64,000 nt of DNA, from contig NZ_JAKFYQ010000002.1 in NCBI RefSeq assembly GCF_021533835.1, positions 1 through 64,000 on the forward strand. Direction: 5' to 3'. The notes under the pieces were generated by a model, which saw nothing but the letters and a program-made list of their open reading frames with translations, did not search any database and was not told where the DNA came from. How positions within the stretch are numbered: position 1 is the first letter of the stretch; each line of letters opens with the position of its first letter. The position numbers were made by a program, and so were the translations under genes. The stretch is from Synechococcus sp. Nb3U1. Lineage in GTDB: Bacteria; Cyanobacteriota; Cyanobacteriia; Thermostichales; Thermostichaceae. This document shows, one piece after another, positions 37,508 through 54,778 of this stretch.

Positions 37508-38662
37508 ATGGAAAGAACCCTTAACCAGATTAACCAGCGGATTGCAGCCGGCAACGTGCGGGTTTGGACGGTCATGGAAGCGAAGGAGAAGATAGCCACA
37601 CTAGGGATCCCGGCGGCCTTTGAACAGGTGGATGTGATCACCACCGGCACCTTCGAGTCGATGGAGTCTTCCGGGGCGATCTTGAACTTGGGTCATACAG
37701 ATCCGCCGATCAAAATTCGTCAGGCTTGGCTAAATGGGGTTCCAGCCTATGCTGGATTTGGAGCTGTGGATCTTTACTTGGGGGCAGCCCAACCCAGCGA
37801 GCAAACCGATCAAGCCTATGGGGGCGGACACGTTATCGCTGACCTGATTGCGGGCAAGAGTGTACATTTGCGGGCAATTGGCCAAGTCACCGATTGCTAC
37901 CCGCGCCCTGATTACGAAACCACCCTGACCCGAGATCAACTCAACCAGTTCTACTTGTTTAATCCGCGCAATGCTTACCAAAACTTCATTGTTGGGGTCA
38001 ATGGCGGCGATCGACCCCTGTATACCTACTTGGGTCTACTGGAGCCTCATTTGGGCAATGCTGTCTACTCTAATCCGGGGGAGCTTTCCCCCTTGTTCAA
38101 CGATCCACTTTTGCGCCGAGTAGGAATCGGTAGCCGCATCTTTCTGGGAGGAGGGATTGGCTATGTGGCTTGGGAGGGAACCCAGCATTTCCCATTGCAA
38201 AAACGCCTGCCCAACCACACCCCCATCGGCCCCGCCGCCACCGTAGCCCTGATCGGCGATGCCAAACAAATGCAACCAGAGTGGGTTAGGGGCTGCTACT
38301 TCCGTAACTACGGCCCTGGCTTGATGTTAGGCGTCGGGATCCCGATCCCGATGCTTTCGCCTGCCGATTTAGAACCTATCGCCATTCGGGATGAAGAGCT
38401 GGTGGCGCCTGTGATCGACTTTTCCATTCCCCGCCGAGTCCGGCCCACCTTCGGCTTGGTCAGCTATGCCCAGCTCAAATCTGGCCACATCACCCTAAAC
38501 GGGCGCGACGTTCGCACAGCCCCACTGGCCAGTTTGCGCCGTTCGATGCAGGTGGCTGAGATCTTGAAAGAATGGATTCAATCGGGCCGATTTACCCTCA
38601 CCCAGCCGGTTGCCCCCTTGCCGACCGACCGAGAGTTCCTTTCCCAAAACCCCTTGAGCTAA
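37508..38662 (+). CDS. DUF39 homocysteine-biosynthesis-type protein
   Basis: The 384-residue protein matches the DUF39 family (COG1900) over its length: DVITTGTFESMESSGAILNL, GHTDPPIKIRQAWLN, VPAYAGFGAVDLYLGAAQP, TDCYPRPDYETTLTRDQLNQ, GSRIFLGGGIGYVAWEGTQH and GVGIPIPML. In methanogens this family converts aspartate semialdehyde and sulfide toward homocysteine together with a small ferredoxin-like partner. I recall two essential cysteines there, near positions 54 and 131. Here Cys130 is kept, but the first position is Glu53. No partner gene is adjacent and no C-terminal CBS domain is present, so the reaction in this organism is uncertain. Confidence 0.85.
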   Translation: MERTLNQINQRIAAGNVRVWTVMEAKEKIATLGIPAAFEQVDVITTGTFESMESSGAILNLGHTDPPIKIRQAWLNGVPAYAGFGAVDLYLGAAQPSEQTDQAYGGGHVIADLIAGKSVHLRAIGQVTDCYPRPDYETTLTRDQLNQFYLFNPRNAYQNFIVGVNGGDRPLYTYLGLLEPHLGNAVYSNPGELSPLFNDPLLRRVGIGSRIFLGGGIGYVAWEGTQHFPLQKRLPNHTPIGPAATVALIGDAKQMQPEWVRGCYFRNYGPGLMLGVGIPIPMLSPADLEPIAIRDEELVAPVIDFSIPRRVRPTFGLVSYAQLKSGHITLNGRDVRTAPLASLRRSMQVAEILKEWIQSGRFTLTQPVAPLPTDREFLSQNPLS

Positions 38663-39193: not shown

Positions 39194-40084
39194 TTATCTG
39201 CCCAGCACCAGCACCTCTGGAATGCGTCCGCGTTTGTGCCCCTGGGAGTTGATGGCACGACTGGCGGAGATGGTGTAAACAGGGAAGCCTCGGTACAGCT
39301 CCCGCACAAAGGGACAATCGGAATTGGAGAGCATCACCTGTACCTGTTGTTGAACCAAAGCCCCAAACACCTCTCGCAGCTGCCTTTGCTCCGCCTCACC
39401 AAAAGAAAAATGGCTGTAAGCTGTGAAACTGCTGCTGCTGGAAAGGGGGTGATAGGGCGGATCCAGATAGACCAAATCCCCAGGCTTGACCCGTTCCAAA
39501 ATCTGCCAAAAGGGTTGCACCGCAAGCTCAATCCCCTGCAACACCTGAGAAGCTGCACGTAAATTATCGGCATCACAAATGCGAGGGTTGCGGTATCGCC
39601 CCAGTGGTACATTGAAGTGCCCACGGGAGTTTTCCCGGTAAAGTCCGTTGAAGCAGGTTTTGTTCAAATACAACAGTCGCGCCGCCCGCCATAGAGAGTC
39701 CTGAGCCTTTGCAGCACGGAGCGCGTAGTAGTAATCAGAACTATGTTGGGCTTGATGGAGAGTGAGCTGGGCAATCAAGTCCTCCACCTGATCCCGCACG
39801 CAGCGATAAACATTCACCAGTTCAGGGTTAATATCCGACAAAGTGGCTTGAAAAGGTGGGTTGGGCTGTGGGTCAATAGGAAATTTTGTTGGCCCATCCA
39901 AAGGCCTTTGCCGCTGGGCTAGATGAAAAAACACTGCTCCACCCCCCAAAAATGGCTCGTGGTAAGTGCCCCATTCTTGAGGGAAAAAGGGTTCGTACTG
40001 GCTCAGCAACTGCCCTTTACCCCCAGCCCATTTCAGAAACGGACGCGCCTTCTTCTGGGCTGCTAGCCGGCTCCCCTGCTTCAT
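39194..40084 (-). CDS. dam: Dam-type DNA adenine methylase (D12 class)
   Basis: The 296-residue N6-adenine methyltransferase has the D12-class order: SAM motif PFLKWAGGKGQLLSQYEPFF, FLGGGAVFFHL, and catalytic DPPYHPLSSSSSFTAYSHF. Its Dam-like layout suggests GATC as target, which would lie inside every GGATCC site of this genome, but specificity is inferred. The ATG at 40084 is chosen; the frame also opens at a TTG (40111) that overlaps the upstream stop, so coupling to the M3-like gene is possible. No restriction enzyme is adjacent, so it looks like an orphan methylase. Confidence 0.88.
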   Translation of the reverse strand: MKQGSRLAAQKKARPFLKWAGGKGQLLSQYEPFFPQEWGTYHEPFLGGGAVFFHLAQRQRPLDGPTKFPIDPQPNPPFQATLSDINPELVNVYRCVRDQVEDLIAQLTLHQAQHSSDYYYALRAAKAQDSLWRAARLLYLNKTCFNGLYRENSRGHFNVPLGRYRNPRICDADNLRAASQVLQGIELAVQPFWQILERVKPGDLVYLDPPYHPLSSSSSFTAYSHFSFGEAEQRQLREVFGALVQQQVQVMLSNSDCPFVRELYRGFPVYTISASRAINSQGHKRGRIPEVLVLGR

Positions 40085-40107
40085 CCTGCTTCGTGCTGTC
40101 CCCACAT

Positions 40108-41928
40108 TCAACGACCGTGCTCCGCACGGCGCGGAGTGCCATAGGCTGGCCCATCTTCCAGCAGCTCTTCCAAAGTTTCAATCCAGCTTTCCATCTCCTC
40201 AAGAGCCTGCAAAAATACATCGGGATCCGCGATATCCACCTGCAGCATCAGGGCTGTTTCTTCCAATGTCAGGGATCCCGGTGGACTGGCCAACCAATTG
40301 AGGTAACGCGGCAGAAACTCGCGGGAAGAAGCCTGATAGCGTCGATACCAAGCCAAGGCCATCAAGCTGGAGAGGCTGGCTTGATAGGCGCTGAAGGGAC
40401 GTTGAAACAACTCCGGGATCCCGGCCCAGTCGAACTGATGTTCTGGCAACAATTCCACCGCATCGCCACACAGCTCCTGATACAGTTTGAGCCACTCTTC
40501 ACTCACCCAGTCTGAATAGGTTTCGCCATTCTCCAAGACCGGGATTCCCTGTCGATAGAGAATCAACTCCAACCGAGTGATCAGGCTCTGACAAAACACT
40601 GCCTGTAACTGAGCCTCCAAACTATGAATTAGCAGCGCATGAGCCAGAGCGGATTTTACCCCGTTGCTCCGATGCAGCTCCTCACGGGATCCCGCCCGCC
40701 CACCCCGGCCCGAGTGCAGCAGATAATCCAGCACCAGCAACTGCAAAAACTCGCTGTGAACTTGACCGAGAACGGCTGGTGTAGGGCTAGCCTGAACATC
40801 CTCCAGTTCCGGCCAAATCAGGGGATCCGCAGCCCGTAACTCTTGGCTTACCCTGGCAATACTTTCCAGCAACGGCTGAATAGGGGCCCGGGGCGCTACA
40901 GACTCTGTTTCTTCTGGTATCGCAGGCTGAGCCGTGGCGGCTTCTCCAGATAGCCAGGGCTTGGATTGAGTGGCGCACTCGGGGCAAAACTCCTGCAAAG
41001 CAGCCAACACCAGAGCCGAGGTTTCCGTGGAGGTTAGGTCGGCTATACCCCCATTGACTTCCCAAGGGGCTTGCAAATCGCAAATGCGGATGGAACGGCC
41101 CATCTCCCGACTTTTCAGGCGATAGTAGCGTTGGAACAGGTCAACCCGCTCGCGAATACCTTCTACTAAGTTGTCAAAGGTAGTCTGGGCAAGGCAGTGG
41201 CGAGCTAGGTATAGCTCAACGGGAGCATCATAACTCCGCCATCGGGCTTCCCAGAGGTGATCTCTAACCAGGGTGCTGAGAATAAAGCCACAGAGATCGG
41301 CATGGGCTTCCAGATGCTGGTGCAAGCGTTGGTATGCCGCCAATCGGATCTCGGCGCTGGGGTGGGTTTGCAGGCGCTGCAATTCCGCAAGGGTATAGGC
41401 ATTCTCCGCATCGGCCTTGAGGTTATGGCGCTCCGGCCCATGGAGGGTGGTTTGCCACAACTGCCGCCAGGCGAAACGCCCCGTCAGGTGTTGCTGGTGC
41501 AGTAGACGCTCCAAAGGCTCGGGCTGTTGGTGGCCCCGTTCACAGAGCAGACGGGATAAAAACACGCGAAACGGCAACCCTGCCGGCTCGGATTGATACT
41601 CGGCCAACCGGTCTGTGGGCAAAGCCTGCAATTCTAAAGGGAAAAACAGCAGTGAGTTTTGCAACGTGATCCGCTGCTCCATCCACTCCAAGACACCTTC
41701 TGCATCCAGCCGCACCCTAAGGTCGCTAGGGATCCCTGGCAAGGCTGCTAACAGAGACGAAAGTTCTTCTAGGGCCACCACCACCTCTGCTCCACTCAGC
41801 TGAGCCACTTGTCCCCAGTAGCGTTGGCGAAACGCTTGAATTTGATCTTCTAGCGGAGTCAGTTCGGGATCCGGATCCACCAGTCCCCCAGAAAGGGTAG
41901 AAGTCGGTTCAGAAGCAGGAGGTACCAC
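40108..41928 (-). CDS. M3-peptidase-like protein lacking the HEXXH zinc site
   Basis: The 606-residue protein follows the layout of M3B oligoendopeptidase F. N-terminal helices come first; the middle contains RLAAYQRLHQHLEAHADLCG and RWRSYDAPVELYLARHCL; the C-terminal part (about 440-600) contains SDWVSEEWLKLYQELCGD and FQRPFSAYQASLSSLMAL. The catalytic HEXGH helix and the downstream Glu ligand are missing: where they should be, the chain reads LAHALLIHSLEAQLQAVFCQ. A Glu/Pro/Ala-rich insert occupies about 325-350. It is therefore probably not a peptidase. GTG start, with GGAGG 9 bases upstream inside the end of the kinase gene; a 5-base gap separates them. Family assignment is by pattern only. 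Confidence 0.65.
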   Translation of the reverse strand: MVPPASEPTSTLSGGLVDPDPELTPLEDQIQAFRQRYWGQVAQLSGAEVVVALEELSSLLAALPGIPSDLRVRLDAEGVLEWMEQRITLQNSLLFFPLELQALPTDRLAEYQSEPAGLPFRVFLSRLLCERGHQQPEPLERLLHQQHLTGRFAWRQLWQTTLHGPERHNLKADAENAYTLAELQRLQTHPSAEIRLAAYQRLHQHLEAHADLCGFILSTLVRDHLWEARWRSYDAPVELYLARHCLAQTTFDNLVEGIRERVDLFQRYYRLKSREMGRSIRICDLQAPWEVNGGIADLTSTETSALVLAALQEFCPECATQSKPWLSGEAATAQPAIPEETESVAPRAPIQPLLESIARVSQELRAADPLIWPELEDVQASPTPAVLGQVHSEFLQLLVLDYLLHSGRGGRAGSREELHRSNGVKSALAHALLIHSLEAQLQAVFCQSLITRLELILYRQGIPVLENGETYSDWVSEEWLKLYQELCGDAVELLPEHQFDWAGIPELFQRPFSAYQASLSSLMALAWYRRYQASSREFLPRYLNWLASPPGSLTLEETALMLQVDIADPDVFLQALEEMESWIETLEELLEDGPAYGTPRRAEHGR

Positions 41929-41933
41929 CGGGA

Positions 41934-44900
41934 TCAGCCTCCACCGCTGGGGGGGTACCCCATTGGGTGTGTAGAACGTCGTGCCGTCTCCCCGCCTACC
42001 AATGCCCGGATGGTATTAAGGAACTCTTGATTGGAAGTACGGGCTTTCACCAGCGTGGCCTGGATCCCGTCTTCAAGAATGTCTGAGCCAATATCTTGGG
42101 CAGAAAATACCACCACAGGAGTCGTGCTGACCGAGCGCAACAGCGGCAACAGTTCTAACCCTGATCCATCCGGCAAGTACAAATCCAAAATCACCAGTTG
42201 AAATTGTCGGGTCTGCAAAAGCTGGCGAGCTTCTTCCAGGGAATGGGCATGAGCCAATTCAGCAGTATTCTGCAAAATTTGCGCGACCACTTGCAAGATA
42301 TCGGGATCATCCTCCACATGCAAAATCTGGGGACGCGATCGTTCTTCCAAGGCTGCCGCCTGTTGGACTGCCGCCACCAACTGCCCTTGGTTGATGGGTT
42401 TGTTTAGCCATGCGATCAACTTGGCGGGGTGTTCTGCTATCACCGATGACAATGCCTCGGCCTTTCCTGGCCGCAACCCTGCCAGCGGTGGGGCGGGTGG
42501 AACGGAACCTTCATGCAACTCGGAGGAATATTTGAGCCACTCCGCCTGCCGCCGTTGCTCTGCTGTTGCTGAGACCACCACAATCGGCAGGTTGCCCAAT
42601 CCTTGCATTTGCTGCAGATCCTTCACCAAAGACAGGCCATCTTGATCCGGCAGCGACAGATCGAGGGTCATAGCAGCATAGGGCCGCTGCTGTAACAGGT
42701 ACTTGGCATCGGCTGCTGTGGAGGCAATATCGACCTGAAATCCCCCTTGCTTAAGGATGAGCTGCAACAACATGGCAATGTCAGGATCGTCTTCACACAC
42801 CAGTATGGGGACTCCATCGGCAGGTTCTGGATCAGCAGGTTCTGGAGATGTTGAGGCGAGGCGAGGCTGCCACCCGGGCAAAGTGAAATAAAAAGTAGTG
42901 CCCTGCTGAGTGGGTTCTCGTGCCTCTTGAGCGGGGTTGGACTCAAAACCAATCGTACCGCCGAACCGCTCCACAATTGCTTTGCTGATGCTCAAGCCCA
43001 AGCCTGTACCCCCTTTTTGTCGCGTATCGGAAGAGTCGGCCTGGGCAAACTTTTGGAAGATGCGAGAGCGAAACGCTTCCGGGATCCCTGGCCCGCGATC
43101 CTGCACACAAACGCGGATCCCCTCCTGAACTTGTTCGACCCAAACCCGCACCGTTTGCCCCGCCGGAGAAAATTTAGCGGCATTGGAGAGCAAGTTGTTC
43201 ATCACCTGCATCAGCCGATTCGGATCCACATTCACCTGTACCGCCGTCAGAGGGATCCCTGTTGTCGAGCGCAGGGTGGGCTCGAGCACCAAGTCCACCT
43301 CAAACTGAGCAGCATAGGCTCGGTTGGCCTCGATCGCCTGTTGCAACAAAGCCATCAGCTCGACAGGATGGATATCAAAGTGCATCTTACCCGACTCGAT
43401 TTTTTCAATATCGAGGATGTCGTTGATCAACATCACCAGCCGTTCACTGTTTTTGAAGGCAATCTCCACCAAAGACTGCACCTGAGGCGGCAATTCCCCA
43501 CTCGCCCCGCCCTTGATCAACCCCAGAGCCCCGCGAATTGAGGTGAGGGGGGTGCGCAACTCGTGGCTGACGGTAGAGACAAACTCGTTTTTTAACCGCT
43601 CGACTTTCTTGCGCTCGGTGATGTCGCGGTGGCTCCACACACATCCGGAAATTTGGGTAGGGTTGACGGCAGTTTCCCCCAACTGGCGGGGCTTGCTATA
43701 GCACTCAAACACCCGCCCATCTTTGAGCTCCACCAGGTCATATCCCTCCTGTTGAAGGCGGAGATGGTGGCGGATACGGCGCAAAAAGCGCAGCGGATGG
43801 CGGGTACGGCGGGCCATGCGGCGCAGGCGTTGGCTGGGGGAGAGGCTCATCAATTCAGCGTAGGTCAAGCCCCACAAATCTAGGAAGCGCTGGTTGTAGC
43901 TGAGCACCTGTCCTTTCAAATCGAAGGCGAGAATGCCATCGGCAGTGGAATCAAGGGTGGCTTGCAGCAGCGAGAGGGAGCGTTGCAATTCCTGTTCGGC
44001 CTTTTTGCGCTCGGTGATGTCTTCGAAAGTGCCCTCGTAGTAAAGCACTTGTCCTGATTCATCTCGAACCACCCGGGCATTTTCCCGCACGGTAATGCGG
44101 CTGCCATCGCGGCGAAAATATTCGATTTCCAAACCGCGAATTTCTCCCGCACTTTCCAATTGGCGCTTGAAATCGGCTCGAGAAAAATCTGGCGGATAGT
44201 GGCTCTCTTCCTCTAGGTTCCAGGCCATCATCTCTTCGTAAGAGGTGCAGTTCATCATGCGAATGATGGCGGGATTGGCCAGAATGGTCTTCCCCTCAGG
44301 CGTGGTGCGGTAGACACCAATGGGGGTATTCTCAAACAACGACCGATAGCGAATTTCGCTTTCTTGTAGGGCTTGCTCGACTTTCTTGCGCTCGGTGATG
44401 TCTTCAACAAAGCCTTCATAATAAAGGATCTGCCCCTGGGGATCCCGGACGGCGCGGGCATTCTCGGAGATCCAGATGATGCTGCCATCTTTGCGGTAAA
44501 CCTGGGACTCAAAGCGGCTGATGCTGCCGACCGTTTCCAGCTCCTGCACAAAGACGTGCCGACGACGGGGATCCACATAAAGGCGATGTTCAATGTCCGT
44601 GAGCTCCCGGATCAACTCTTCCGGGCTGTCGTAGCCATAGATGCGGGCCAGAGCGGGGTTGGCACTCAGGTAGTTGCCAGCGGGGGTGGTTTGAAAGATC
44701 CCTTCTAGCGAATTTTCATAGATGCTGCGGTACTTTTCTTCCGCTTGGCGCAGGGCTTCTTCTGCCTGTTTGCGCTGCATGATGGATCCCAGCTGAGTGG
44801 CAGCCGCCTTGACCAAATTCACCAGACGCTGCTCCTGGGGCCTGGCCCGCACCAGATAAAACACCAGCACTGCCACCACTTCCTCGTCTGCCAGAATCGG

Positions 44901-46616
44901 CACGCCAAAACAGGCCCTCAGCCCCGCTTGCTGGGCCAGTTCCCCTCGACGGAACTCCGTGCTAGAGAGCTGCGTCACATCCTCATGCCAAACGGAGCGC
45001 CGTTCTAACCACATTTGGCCGGGTAGCCCCTCCCCCAACCCGAAACGATAGGCGGCACTGCCCCGATGAAACAACAGCAAGGTTTCGATGCGCTTGTACC
45101 AAGTTGCCCCCCGCACCAAATGCTCCCCTTGCGGGATCCAAGCCTCTCCCAGATCCCAGCCAGTGACTACACACACCTGCCGCAACATCACCTGCAGGGC
45201 GGACTGAAAATCGGCAGCTTCGCTGATTGCCTGGGTCAAACTTTGCAACAGTTGCAATTCTTGTTCAACCCGCTTGCGCTCGTGAATATCTTGCACCATT
45301 GAGAAGGTAAACTGCGGCTGGCCTGCTGCATCCCGCACCAAAGACACGGTGATATCCACCCAAAGGGGATCCCCTCCTTTGCGCACATAGCGTTTTTCGA
45401 TGCGAAAGGAATCTCGCTTGCCCTCCAGTAACTCCCGATTTAGGGTGACATCCTTTTCAAGATCTTCGGGATGAGTAAAGTCCATGAAGGTGAGCTGATT
45501 GAGCTCCTCTGAGGTATAGCCCAACATGGAAATATAGGCTTCGTTGTGGGCGAGCAAACGGCCCTGAGGGTCTGCCACGCCTATACCGATGGCCGCCTGC
45601 CGAAACATGGCCCGAAATAGGTTCTGGCTTTCTTGCAGGGCGGTGGTAGTTTCCTGCCGCTCTGCCTCCCATTGCCTCTGATTGTGGGAAAGTCGAGACT
45701 CGGCTTGTTGCCGCTCCAGGGTGAGAGCTAAGGAGGTGGCTGCTGCCCGTAACAGATGGATCTCCGCTTCTGACCAAAGGTAGGGCTGCTGGCAGTGATC
45801 AAAGCCGATTAACCCGAAAAATTGCTCTTCTACAAACAACGGCAGGAGCAAGATGGAGAGGATCCCCTGCGGTTCTAGAAAGTAGCGTTCGGCTTCTCCC
45901 AATTCACGAACCAACCCACAGATCGGTTCGCCAGCGGCCAGCTTGGGTAGCCAATGGGGAGCAAAAGCATCGTAGGGCAAGTTTTGCAGGAGAGGATTGT
46001 CGATTTGAGGCGGGATCCCAGCTTGGCACCATTCGGCTTTTTGGCTCAGCAGAAGGCGTTCTGGTTCCTGCGGATCCCTGTGGTTTTCAAAGATATAGAC
46101 GCGGCTGGCTCCACAGGCTCTGGCCAGGGGCTCCAGCATTACACTATAGATTTGCTGCTGGTTGGTGCTTTTGAGATTGAGCAATCGTTGTTGGATCTCC
46201 ACAAGGGTGGCCAGATACCGCTGCTGAGTGGAGGGTATTGTTTCTGATGGGATCCCGATATTGAGAGGATAGGAAGAGGTTGAAATGGGGCGGGCGGAGC
46301 CGATCCAGGCTTCGGACTGTGAATCCCAAGCTCCCTTCCAGTTGAGCGGTTGGTAGGATCCCTGTCGCTGCCGGAAACGAAGGGTTAGGGGGGGCAGTGG
46401 TTCCTGCCGGCGGCCCGTCTCTAACCAAGATTGAAAGATTGTTTGGTCGTCGGGATGCAGAAAATTGAGGCAGGATTGGCCCCTCAGTTCAGACAGCTCA
46501 TATCCCAAGCAAGACTTCCAATCAGCGCTCAGTTGCGCTAGACATCCATCGGATCCCAGTACATAAAACAGCTCTGGTTCAGGTAGGGAGCCCGTTGCAG
46601 GGGGAGACAAATCCAT
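41934..46616 (-). CDS. Giant multi-PAS/GAF hybrid histidine kinase with two receiver domains
   Basis: The 1560-residue protein has sensor domains in the order PAS, GAF, PAS, GAF, PAS, PAS, PAS, with the PAS-end signature DITERKK repeated between them. A HisKA domain follows with the phospho-accepting His in FVSTVSHELRTPLTSIRGAL, then a HATPase domain with N box MQVMNNLLSNAAKFSP and G boxes DRGPGIPEAF and GGTGLGLSISKAIVERFGG. Two receivers complete it, with Asp in MTLDLSLPDQDG and ILDLYLPDGSG. No membrane segment or obvious bilin-binding Cys is visible, so it is a cytosolic sensor of unknown signal. The ATG at 46616 is preferred over a TTG six codons upstream. It heads a tight operon with the M3-like protein and the adenine methylase. 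Confidence 0.9.
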   Translation of the reverse strand: MDLSPPATGSLPEPELFYVLGSDGCLAQLSADWKSCLGYELSELRGQSCLNFLHPDDQTIFQSWLETGRRQEPLPPLTLRFRQRQGSYQPLNWKGAWDSQSEAWIGSARPISTSSYPLNIGIPSETIPSTQQRYLATLVEIQQRLLNLKSTNQQQIYSVMLEPLARACGASRVYIFENHRDPQEPERLLLSQKAEWCQAGIPPQIDNPLLQNLPYDAFAPHWLPKLAAGEPICGLVRELGEAERYFLEPQGILSILLLPLFVEEQFFGLIGFDHCQQPYLWSEAEIHLLRAAATSLALTLERQQAESRLSHNQRQWEAERQETTTALQESQNLFRAMFRQAAIGIGVADPQGRLLAHNEAYISMLGYTSEELNQLTFMDFTHPEDLEKDVTLNRELLEGKRDSFRIEKRYVRKGGDPLWVDITVSLVRDAAGQPQFTFSMVQDIHERKRVEQELQLLQSLTQAISEAADFQSALQVMLRQVCVVTGWDLGEAWIPQGEHLVRGATWYKRIETLLLFHRGSAAYRFGLGEGLPGQMWLERRSVWHEDVTQLSSTEFRRGELAQQAGLRACFGVPILADEEVVAVLVFYLVRARPQEQRLVNLVKAAATQLGSIMQRKQAEEALRQAEEKYRSIYENSLEGIFQTTPAGNYLSANPALARIYGYDSPEELIRELTDIEHRLYVDPRRRHVFVQELETVGSISRFESQVYRKDGSIIWISENARAVRDPQGQILYYEGFVEDITERKKVEQALQESEIRYRSLFENTPIGVYRTTPEGKTILANPAIIRMMNCTSYEEMMAWNLEEESHYPPDFSRADFKRQLESAGEIRGLEIEYFRRDGSRITVRENARVVRDESGQVLYYEGTFEDITERKKAEQELQRSLSLLQATLDSTADGILAFDLKGQVLSYNQRFLDLWGLTYAELMSLSPSQRLRRMARRTRHPLRFLRRIRHHLRLQQEGYDLVELKDGRVFECYSKPRQLGETAVNPTQISGCVWSHRDITERKKVERLKNEFVSTVSHELRTPLTSIRGALGLIKGGASGELPPQVQSLVEIAFKNSERLVMLINDILDIEKIESGKMHFDIHPVELMALLQQAIEANRAYAAQFEVDLVLEPTLRSTTGIPLTAVQVNVDPNRLMQVMNNLLSNAAKFSPAGQTVRVWVEQVQEGIRVCVQDRGPGIPEAFRSRIFQKFAQADSSDTRQKGGTGLGLSISKAIVERFGGTIGFESNPAQEAREPTQQGTTFYFTLPGWQPRLASTSPEPADPEPADGVPILVCEDDPDIAMLLQLILKQGGFQVDIASTAADAKYLLQQRPYAAMTLDLSLPDQDGLSLVKDLQQMQGLGNLPIVVVSATAEQRRQAEWLKYSSELHEGSVPPAPPLAGLRPGKAEALSSVIAEHPAKLIAWLNKPINQGQLVAAVQQAAALEERSRPQILHVEDDPDILQVVAQILQNTAELAHAHSLEEARQLLQTRQFQLVILDLYLPDGSGLELLPLLRSVSTTPVVVFSAQDIGSDILEDGIQATLVKARTSNQEFLNTIRALVGGETARRSTHPMGYPPSGGG

Positions 46617-46722
46617 GAAGGTCGGCAACCACAAGACTTTTCATGATTGTGACACTCTCTTTTCAAGAATGCAGCTTTGACGCCTTCGCCGGGATTTTTT
46701 TAGGAGCTTCTGCCAGGATGAG

Positions 46723-53404: not shown

Positions 53405-54778
53405 ATGATCCACCGGGCTGGTACATCTGAAATGTCAACAGAACTGTTAACCATTGCGCCTATCCACGTTATTGGCGGAGGGCTAGCGGGGACGGAAGCG
53501 GCTTGGCAAATTGCTGAGCTGGGATTGGAGGTGATCCTTTCGGAGATGCGCCCTTTGCGCCAAAGCCCCGCCCACCACACAGATCATCTGGCCGAACTGG
53601 TGTGTAGCAACTCCTTTGGAGCCTTGGCCAGCGATCGGGCCGCCGGATTGCTCAAAGAAGAACTGCGACAACTGGGATCCCTGGTGATCTGGGTGGCGGA
53701 TCGCCATGCCGTACCTGCCGGAGGAGCCCTAGCGGTGGATCGGGCGGCCTTCAGCCAAGCCCTGACCGAAGCCATTCAAAACCATCCACGCATCACCTTA
53801 CGACGGCAAGAAGTCACCGACATTCCTGAGGGGATCACCGTCCTCTGTACCGGGCCTTTGACCAGTGATCCTTTGGCAGAAGCGCTCCAGACTTTCACGG
53901 GATTGGGCTACCTAAGCTTTTTCGATGCCTCCAGCCCGATTGTTACGGGAGATTCTCTCAATCGAGAGGTGGTGTTTCCGGCCTCTCGCTACGACAAGGG
54001 GGAAGCCGCCTATTTAAATTGCCCGATGACCGAAGCCGAGTACGAGCGGTTTTGGCAAGCTTTGGTACAGGCGGAACAAGCTCCTCTCAAAGCCTTCGAG
54101 CAAGAAGAACGCTCTTTTTTTGAGGGTTGCCTACCGATCGAAGAAATGGCCCGTCGGGGTAAAGATACCCTCTGTTTTGGCCCTCTTAAACCGGTGGGAT
54201 TGGTGGATCCCCGCACGGGATCCCGTCCCCATGCGGTGGTGCAGCTGCGGCAAGAAGATAAGGCTGGTCAACTGTGGAACTTGGTCGGTTTTCAAACCAA
54301 TCTGAAATGGGGGGAACAGCAGCGGGTGTTTCGCCTGATTCCCGGTCTGGAACAGGCCGAGTTTGTGCGCATGGGGGTGATGCACCGCAATACTTTTTTG
54401 AACGCACCGCAGTTGTTGAATGCGACGTTGCAATTTCGGAAGCGTCCGAGCCTGTTTGCCGCCGGCCAGTTGGTGGGCACGGAAGGCTACGCCTGTGCGG
54501 TGGCGGGGGGGTGGCTGGCGGGATCCAATGCGGCCCGTTTTGCCTTGGGGTTGCCCCTGATTCGGCTGCCTGCCGAGACGATGATCGGATCCCTGTTTCA
54601 ATTCATTAGCAGCGCAGATCCCAAACATTTTCAACCGATGCCCGCAAACTTTGGCATTCTGCCCAATCTAGAGGGGCGCAAGATCCGCAGCAAACCGGAG
54701 CGTTATGGCCGTTATCGGGATCGAGCTTTGGCCGCGCTGGCGGCCACGGGGCTGATTCGGCAGGTACAAACTGCCTGA
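53405..54778 (+). CDS. trmFO: tRNA m5U54 methyltransferase TrmFO
   Basis: TrmFO uses methylenetetrahydrofolate and FADH2 to methylate U54 of tRNA. The 457-residue protein has the FAD dinucleotide motif [20 protein letters not shown], the first catalytic Cys region [17 protein letters not shown], the second Cys in [14 protein letters not shown], and the C-terminal FAD-contacting [20 protein letters not shown]. The ATG at 53405 has AGGA upstream; the ATG at 53432 ([17 protein letters not shown]) gives a more usual N-terminus and may be the true start. Confidence 0.94.

Follow-up and report, generated by a model that had tools for sequence, protein, structure and literature searches.

A gene for a giant hybrid histidine kinase in the cyanobacterium Synechococcus sp. 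Nb3U1 is followed on the same strand by a gene for an M3-like protein and a gene for a Dam-type DNA methyltransferase. A preliminary description of this locus proposed that GATC methylation is under the control of the kinase and that the M3-like protein serves as an adaptor. The question is whether the three genes form such a system and what the M3-like protein is for. The window analyzed here is a 64,000-nucleotide stretch (contig NZ_JAKFYQ010000002.1, positions 1 to 64,000) of a 3.49 Mb genome, which was compared with eight relatives of its order. The genus set comprises six genomes, five of which carry the M3-like gene and one of which, G007, does not.

Gene layout and the hybrid kinase

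The genes of the locus and the features used in the comparisons are the following:

46645-46659, minus strand: promoter-like footprint GAGAGTGTCACAATC (comparison of genus loci)
46616-41934, minus strand: hybrid histidine kinase, 1560 aa from ATG (open reading frame)
41970-42311, minus strand: C-terminal receiver REC2 of the kinase, of which a remnant survives upstream of the M3-like gene in G006 and G005
41928-40108, minus strand: M3-like (oligoendopeptidase F-type) predicted pseudopeptidase, 606 aa from GTG (open reading frame and profiles)
40084-39194 from ATG, minus strand: Dam-type (D12) adenine-N6 DNA methyltransferase (open reading frame and profiles)
39059-38742, minus strand: BolA-family protein, directly 3' of Dam (profile match)

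Re-reading the open reading frames confirmed the tight junctions described earlier for the three minus-strand genes. The GTG of the M3-like gene starts 5 bases past the kinase stop, and its ribosome-site sequence, GGTGGAGG, lies within the kinase gene. The earliest possible Dam start, a TTG at 40111, overlaps the M3-like stop and is followed by the ATG at 40084. No internal promoter or terminator patterns above shuffled expectation were found in the three-gene unit. The arrangement is operon-like, and the three genes are predicted to share a single transcript. BolA may be a further member of the unit. It is separated from Dam by about 135 bases in the window, and the Dam-BolA order is common to the window genome, G008, and G005. 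Adjoining BolA at 37508-38662 is a homocysteine-biosynthesis-type HcyBio protein (PF01837), which is strongly conserved in the genus and has a sub-threshold match to methanogenesis marker 16.

The domain order of the kinase, from Pfam and NCBIfam matches and inspection, is PAS-GAF-PAS-GAF-PAS-PAS-PAS-HisKA-HATPase-REC-REC. Counting the matched stretches and an N-terminal PAS-like segment gives five PAS and two GAF domains, in agreement with the seven claimed previously, and the size of 1560 residues and the presence of two receivers likewise agree with the reading frame and the profile matches. By inspection, the catalytic boxes SHELRTP, NNLLSNA, DRGPGIP, and GTGLGLS are intact and both receivers have their Asp. 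The protein therefore resembles the cyanobacterial PAS/GAF hybrid histidine kinases in its standard domain set and intact boxes. What sets it apart is that, within the order, the sister species G008 is the sole genome with a full ortholog. Upstream of the kinase gene in the window is the divergent gene YifB. In G008 a contig break separates these two genes, and similar hairpin-like sequence on either side of it (L040:14624-14940, L155:1-330) suggests an inserted element.

Loss of catalytic residues in the M3-like protein

The M3-like protein matches the Pfam profile Peptidase_M3_N barely above the cut-off and the NCBIfam profile TIGR02290 far under it. TIGR02290 scores are 106-158 bits for the inactive forms, compared with 427-446 bits for active cyanobacterial relatives. 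M3 relatives are present in 62 of 291 sampled cyanobacteria. An alignment of 41 M3 sequences, 36 from outside the genus and 5 from genus members, locates the former catalytic positions:

40831-40845, minus strand: former HExxH site, residues 362-366 (M3 alignment)
40762-40764, minus strand: former third zinc ligand, residue 389, changed from Glu to Gln (Arg in G004)
40390-40413, minus strand: former second catalytic region, in which all five genus members have Glu for His506 and Ser for Tyr513

Every one of the 36 aligned homologues outside the genus has HEMGH or HELGH together with the Glu ligand, and the motif and the ligand are intact in G002 and G003, which represent genera of the same family. 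The HExxH position reads QELRA in the window and G008, and the three remaining members with the gene have RRLRP or QRLRP. In all five, the two His ligands are gone, and so is the Glu ligand. His506 and Tyr513 are nearly invariant among the motif-bearing M3 forms, and the region around them is assigned as the catalytic His/Tyr region of M3 peptidases. With no HExxH and a changed residue at the aligned third ligand, the earlier designation of the protein as an inactivated peptidase stands.

The AF2 model of the M3-like protein (mean pLDDT 82) aligns with the structure 2qr4 (PepF) with a Z score of 40.1 and 3.9 Å over 500 residues. By this model, the protein is predicted to retain a full-length PepF-type fold without the zinc site. 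It is similar to M3B oligoendopeptidase F (PepF; TIGR02290/TIGR00181; 2qr4) in the whole fold, but it lacks the HExxH, the Glu ligand, and the catalytic His/Tyr; the sequence kinship to PepF runs via the cyanobacterial M3 family. Cleavage of peptides by another metal site or mechanism would be in line with the modeled fold and with the retained segment LCGDAVELLPEHQFDW, but it is very improbable given that both His, the Glu ligand, His506, and Tyr513 have all been replaced.

In a tree computed without the active-site columns, the inactive forms make up one clade (SH-aLRT 100). Their closest M3 proteins outside the genus are those of G002 and G003 (41% identity), and since the motif is intact in both, the loss of the zinc site is placed most simply on the genus stem. 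An active M3 paralogue elsewhere in the genus was considered, but no PF01432-positive M3 peptidase was found in any of the six genomes, while three outgroups and 11 of 14 controls have one. The stem branch is long, and a paralogue with differential loss may conceivably account for the present distribution.

The reading frame is open in five genomes, with no stop or frameshift at dS values of up to about 1.8, and pairwise dN/dS among the genus members is 0.16-0.34, which indicates that the gene is under purifying selection. Also, all five members have in common the derived residues W154, R155, H144, H391, E506, S513, W545, and W582, which were not found among motif-bearing M3 forms. These observations bear on whether the gene is a slowly decaying pseudogene, kept in frame by chance between expressed genes. 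Such decay would fit the differing former catalytic positions (QELRA, RRLRP, QRLRP), dN/dS values as high as 0.34, and the short in-frame repeats tolerated in G006. It is nonetheless unlikely, as five genomes have kept the frame over this divergence, dN/dS with its bootstrap limits is well under 1, and one new residue set is common to all members. The G006 repeats, CTACGCGACGCTTC and CTACGGCACCCTGGCGGGAAC, are inserted several times in frame (L044:10757-12830), and the protein has 696 aa compared with 606 aa in the window. The same repeat family is found around the G006 kinase remnant and is absent from the other genus loci examined.

Protein interaction or scaffolding is the role described for metallopeptidase pseudoenzymes in a review (PMC11266112). 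The M3-like protein is similar to this class in having a retained fold, as modeled, and lost catalytic residues, together with purifying selection and relatives that are active as judged by motif. It differs in being bacterial and in adjoining a kinase. A term search of the review's text turned up neither the M3 family nor thimet/oligopeptidases, an absence that concerns one text only and is no proof of novelty.

Remnants of the cluster in related genomes

The unbroken kinase-M3-Dam order is found in the window genome and its sister species G008 (2 of the 6 genus genomes), whose cluster proteins are 87-90% identical to those of the window, and it is absent from the four other genus genomes. 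Dam and the M3-like gene are present without an intact kinase in G005 (L042) and G006 (L044). The G006 Dam is truncated at a contig end, with the first codons only, and was left out of the selection test. In G006, a 178-codon frame 5' of the M3-like gene shares 67% identity with REC2, the final receiver in the kinase, and G005 has a shorter, frame-broken REC2 remnant 5' of its M3-like gene. The DNA alignment scores of the two remnants are 296 and 100, compared with shuffled maxima of 38 and 36, respectively.

In G004 (L041), the M3-like gene is present without a local kinase or Dam, and a distantly related Dam lies at an unlinked place. The kinase/M3 junction sequence is still there; a kinase trace sought 5' of the M3-like gene scored 23, within the null. 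Just 3' of the gene is a remnant of the Dam C-terminus, with a DNA score of 59 compared with 37 for shuffled sequence, and a tblastn match of 64% over 22 residues. The kinase, the M3-like gene, any D12 methylase, and an orthologous BolA were not found in the G007 assembly (95% complete), in which YifB and pheA adjoin where the block is missing. None of the other cyanobacterial M3 loci examined has an adjoining kinase or Dam. Given the remnants and the piecemeal absence of genes, the cluster dates back to the genus ancestor and is now being dismantled.

The region upstream of the cluster is informative in this context. An extended -10 is one possible reading of the footprint GAGAGTGTCACAATC. 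Within it, TGTCACAA occurs as a single copy in each of five loci, always at the footprint position, and the longer form, GAGA[AG]TGTCACAA, is also single copy in each locus. The TGTCACAAT footprint precedes the kinase gene in two genomes and the M3-like gene in three kinase-less genomes, and it was not found in the G007 stretch without the kinase-M3-Dam block. Since the footprint was retained 5' of the M3-like gene after the kinase was lost, it can be argued that the M3-like gene and Dam were read from the kinase promoter. Of the sequence evidence for a single transcription unit, this pattern is the strongest.

By pairwise counting (NG86), a crude measure given with bootstrap limits, dN/dS of the M3-like gene is 0.158 (0.116-0.217; dS 0.40) in the kinase-bearing species pair and 0.307 (0.237-0.400; dS 0.37) in a kinase-less pair, at similar dS, a contrast that amounts to one replicate because the three kinase-less genomes carrying the gene form one clade and the kinase may have been lost in one event. 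dN/dS does not clearly rise in any of the four control genes (pheA, HcyBio, YifB, and the gene at 53405). The higher value in the kinase-less pair favors a link between the kinase and the pseudopeptidase, of a looser kind than an obligate system.

Dam, GATC methylation, and the possible role of the pseudopeptidase

The third gene is a Dam-type methylase by profile and motif. The D12 and TIGR00571 dam profiles match far over the curated cut-offs (278.8 bits for TIGR00571, cut-off 114.85), the motifs DPPY and NGLxRxN...FNVPxGRY are present, and the best solved relative is DpnM (2dpm, 5.5e-62). The window has 612 GATC sites compared with 246 expected, which is indirect as to methylation, and 71 copies of GGGATCCC compared with 1.4 expected. 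The same sequence is the dominant octamer reported for JA-3-3Ab and JA-2-3B (PMC4390886). The window Dam is similar to the orphan GATC methyltransferase of HIP-rich cyanobacteria in being of Dam/DpnM type in a GGGATCCC-rich genome (PMC4390886). Unlike the usual orphan Dam, which has an rbfA-GH3 context, it sits in a putative operon with the kinase and M3-like genes. At the sampled cyanobacterial loci (L133-L152), Dam is near rbfA in 14 of 20 and near a GH3 gene in 12 of 20, and no comparable kinase adjoins it at any of the 20. The idea that a kinase and Dam recur as neighbors across cyanobacteria was therefore rejected. Synechocystis may have a Dam gene near a hybrid kinase, but nothing on this neighborhood was found in the literature, and it was not counted as evidence.

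The window Dam groups with that of G002 (support 92), which is in another gene context. The unlinked Dam of G004 (L151:5245-6207) is 83% identical to that of G036 (L150:6113-7072), a possible transfer between hot-spring cyanobacteria in which the native Dam was replaced. With the local Dam of G004 decayed and another present, a Dam has been kept while the linkage was given up. Taken together, Dam looks like an ordinary, housekeeping-like orphan GATC methylase of HIP-rich cyanobacteria. In G007 (L153, L154), GGGATCCC is enriched (27 compared with 0.7 expected), though no D12 methylase was found; recent loss of the D12 gene, another GATC methylase, or an assembly gap may be the cause. Over short time spans the octamer therefore says nothing about the local gene, and its use as a proxy for a local Dam was discarded.

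The proposal that the kinase regulates GATC methylation through the pseudopeptidase, an adaptor linking its receivers to Dam, draws on the tight junctions and common strand of the three genes, the ancestral gene order in the genus, and the stronger constraint on the M3-like gene where the kinase is present. On the other hand, in G005 and G006 Dam and the M3-like gene have survived although the kinase is no longer intact, the M3-like gene persists in G004 with Dam unlinked, and the 20 other cyanobacterial Dam loci show no kinase linkage. Since the inactive peptidase outlives both kinase and Dam, and Dam outlives the kinase, an obligate signal-to-methylation system is unsupported; the three genes are retained together in 2 of the 6 genus genomes. 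We consider the adaptor proposal improbable. Of the preliminary description, the operon-like arrangement and the inactive peptidase are upheld, and signal-controlled methylation as a conserved or obligate system is not.

It is also conceivable that three unrelated functions share one transcript as chance neighbors, with the pseudopeptidase having a job of its own. In line with this, relatives have lost the kinase and Dam piecemeal, and Dam has other contexts in G002 and other cyanobacteria, but the M3-like gene has a higher dN/dS in the kinase-less pair, which the controls do not, and a four-gene block is absent together from G007; we regard this reading as doubtful. A signaling pair, in which the inactive M3 protein is the ligand-binding or output partner of the giant kinase and Dam expression is tied to it by the shared transcript, is a tentative possibility. 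If true, it would make the protein a bacterial pseudoenzyme of the M3 family that has a regulatory function.

We favor, with modest confidence, a reading in which the kinase-M3-Dam operon is restricted to this genus of hot-spring-type (Thermostichus-like) cyanobacteria. On the genus stem, a cyanobacterial M3 oligoendopeptidase would have lost all of its zinc ligands and become a pseudopeptidase, the gene of which would have lain between the large hybrid kinase and the genus Dam by the time of the genus ancestor. Dam would be an ordinary orphan methylase for GATC in a genome rich in GGGATCCC, independent of kinase and pseudopeptidase. The pseudopeptidase most likely binds a peptide or protein, without catalysis, in the M3 cavity that it has kept, a proposal based on the fold. 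In the kinase-bearing species it probably acts in the pathway of the kinase, and in the kinase-less species it would be under weaker constraint.

The locus cautions that a tight three-gene unit is not to be read as one regulatory machine before relatives are checked. The pseudopeptidase is the most interesting part of the cluster. It offers a clean natural example in which an oligopeptidase became a pseudoenzyme in a single genus, while its relatives in sister genera still have the motif. Members without the kinase, without the methylase, or without the block make the purpose of the inactive enzyme testable by simple comparison.
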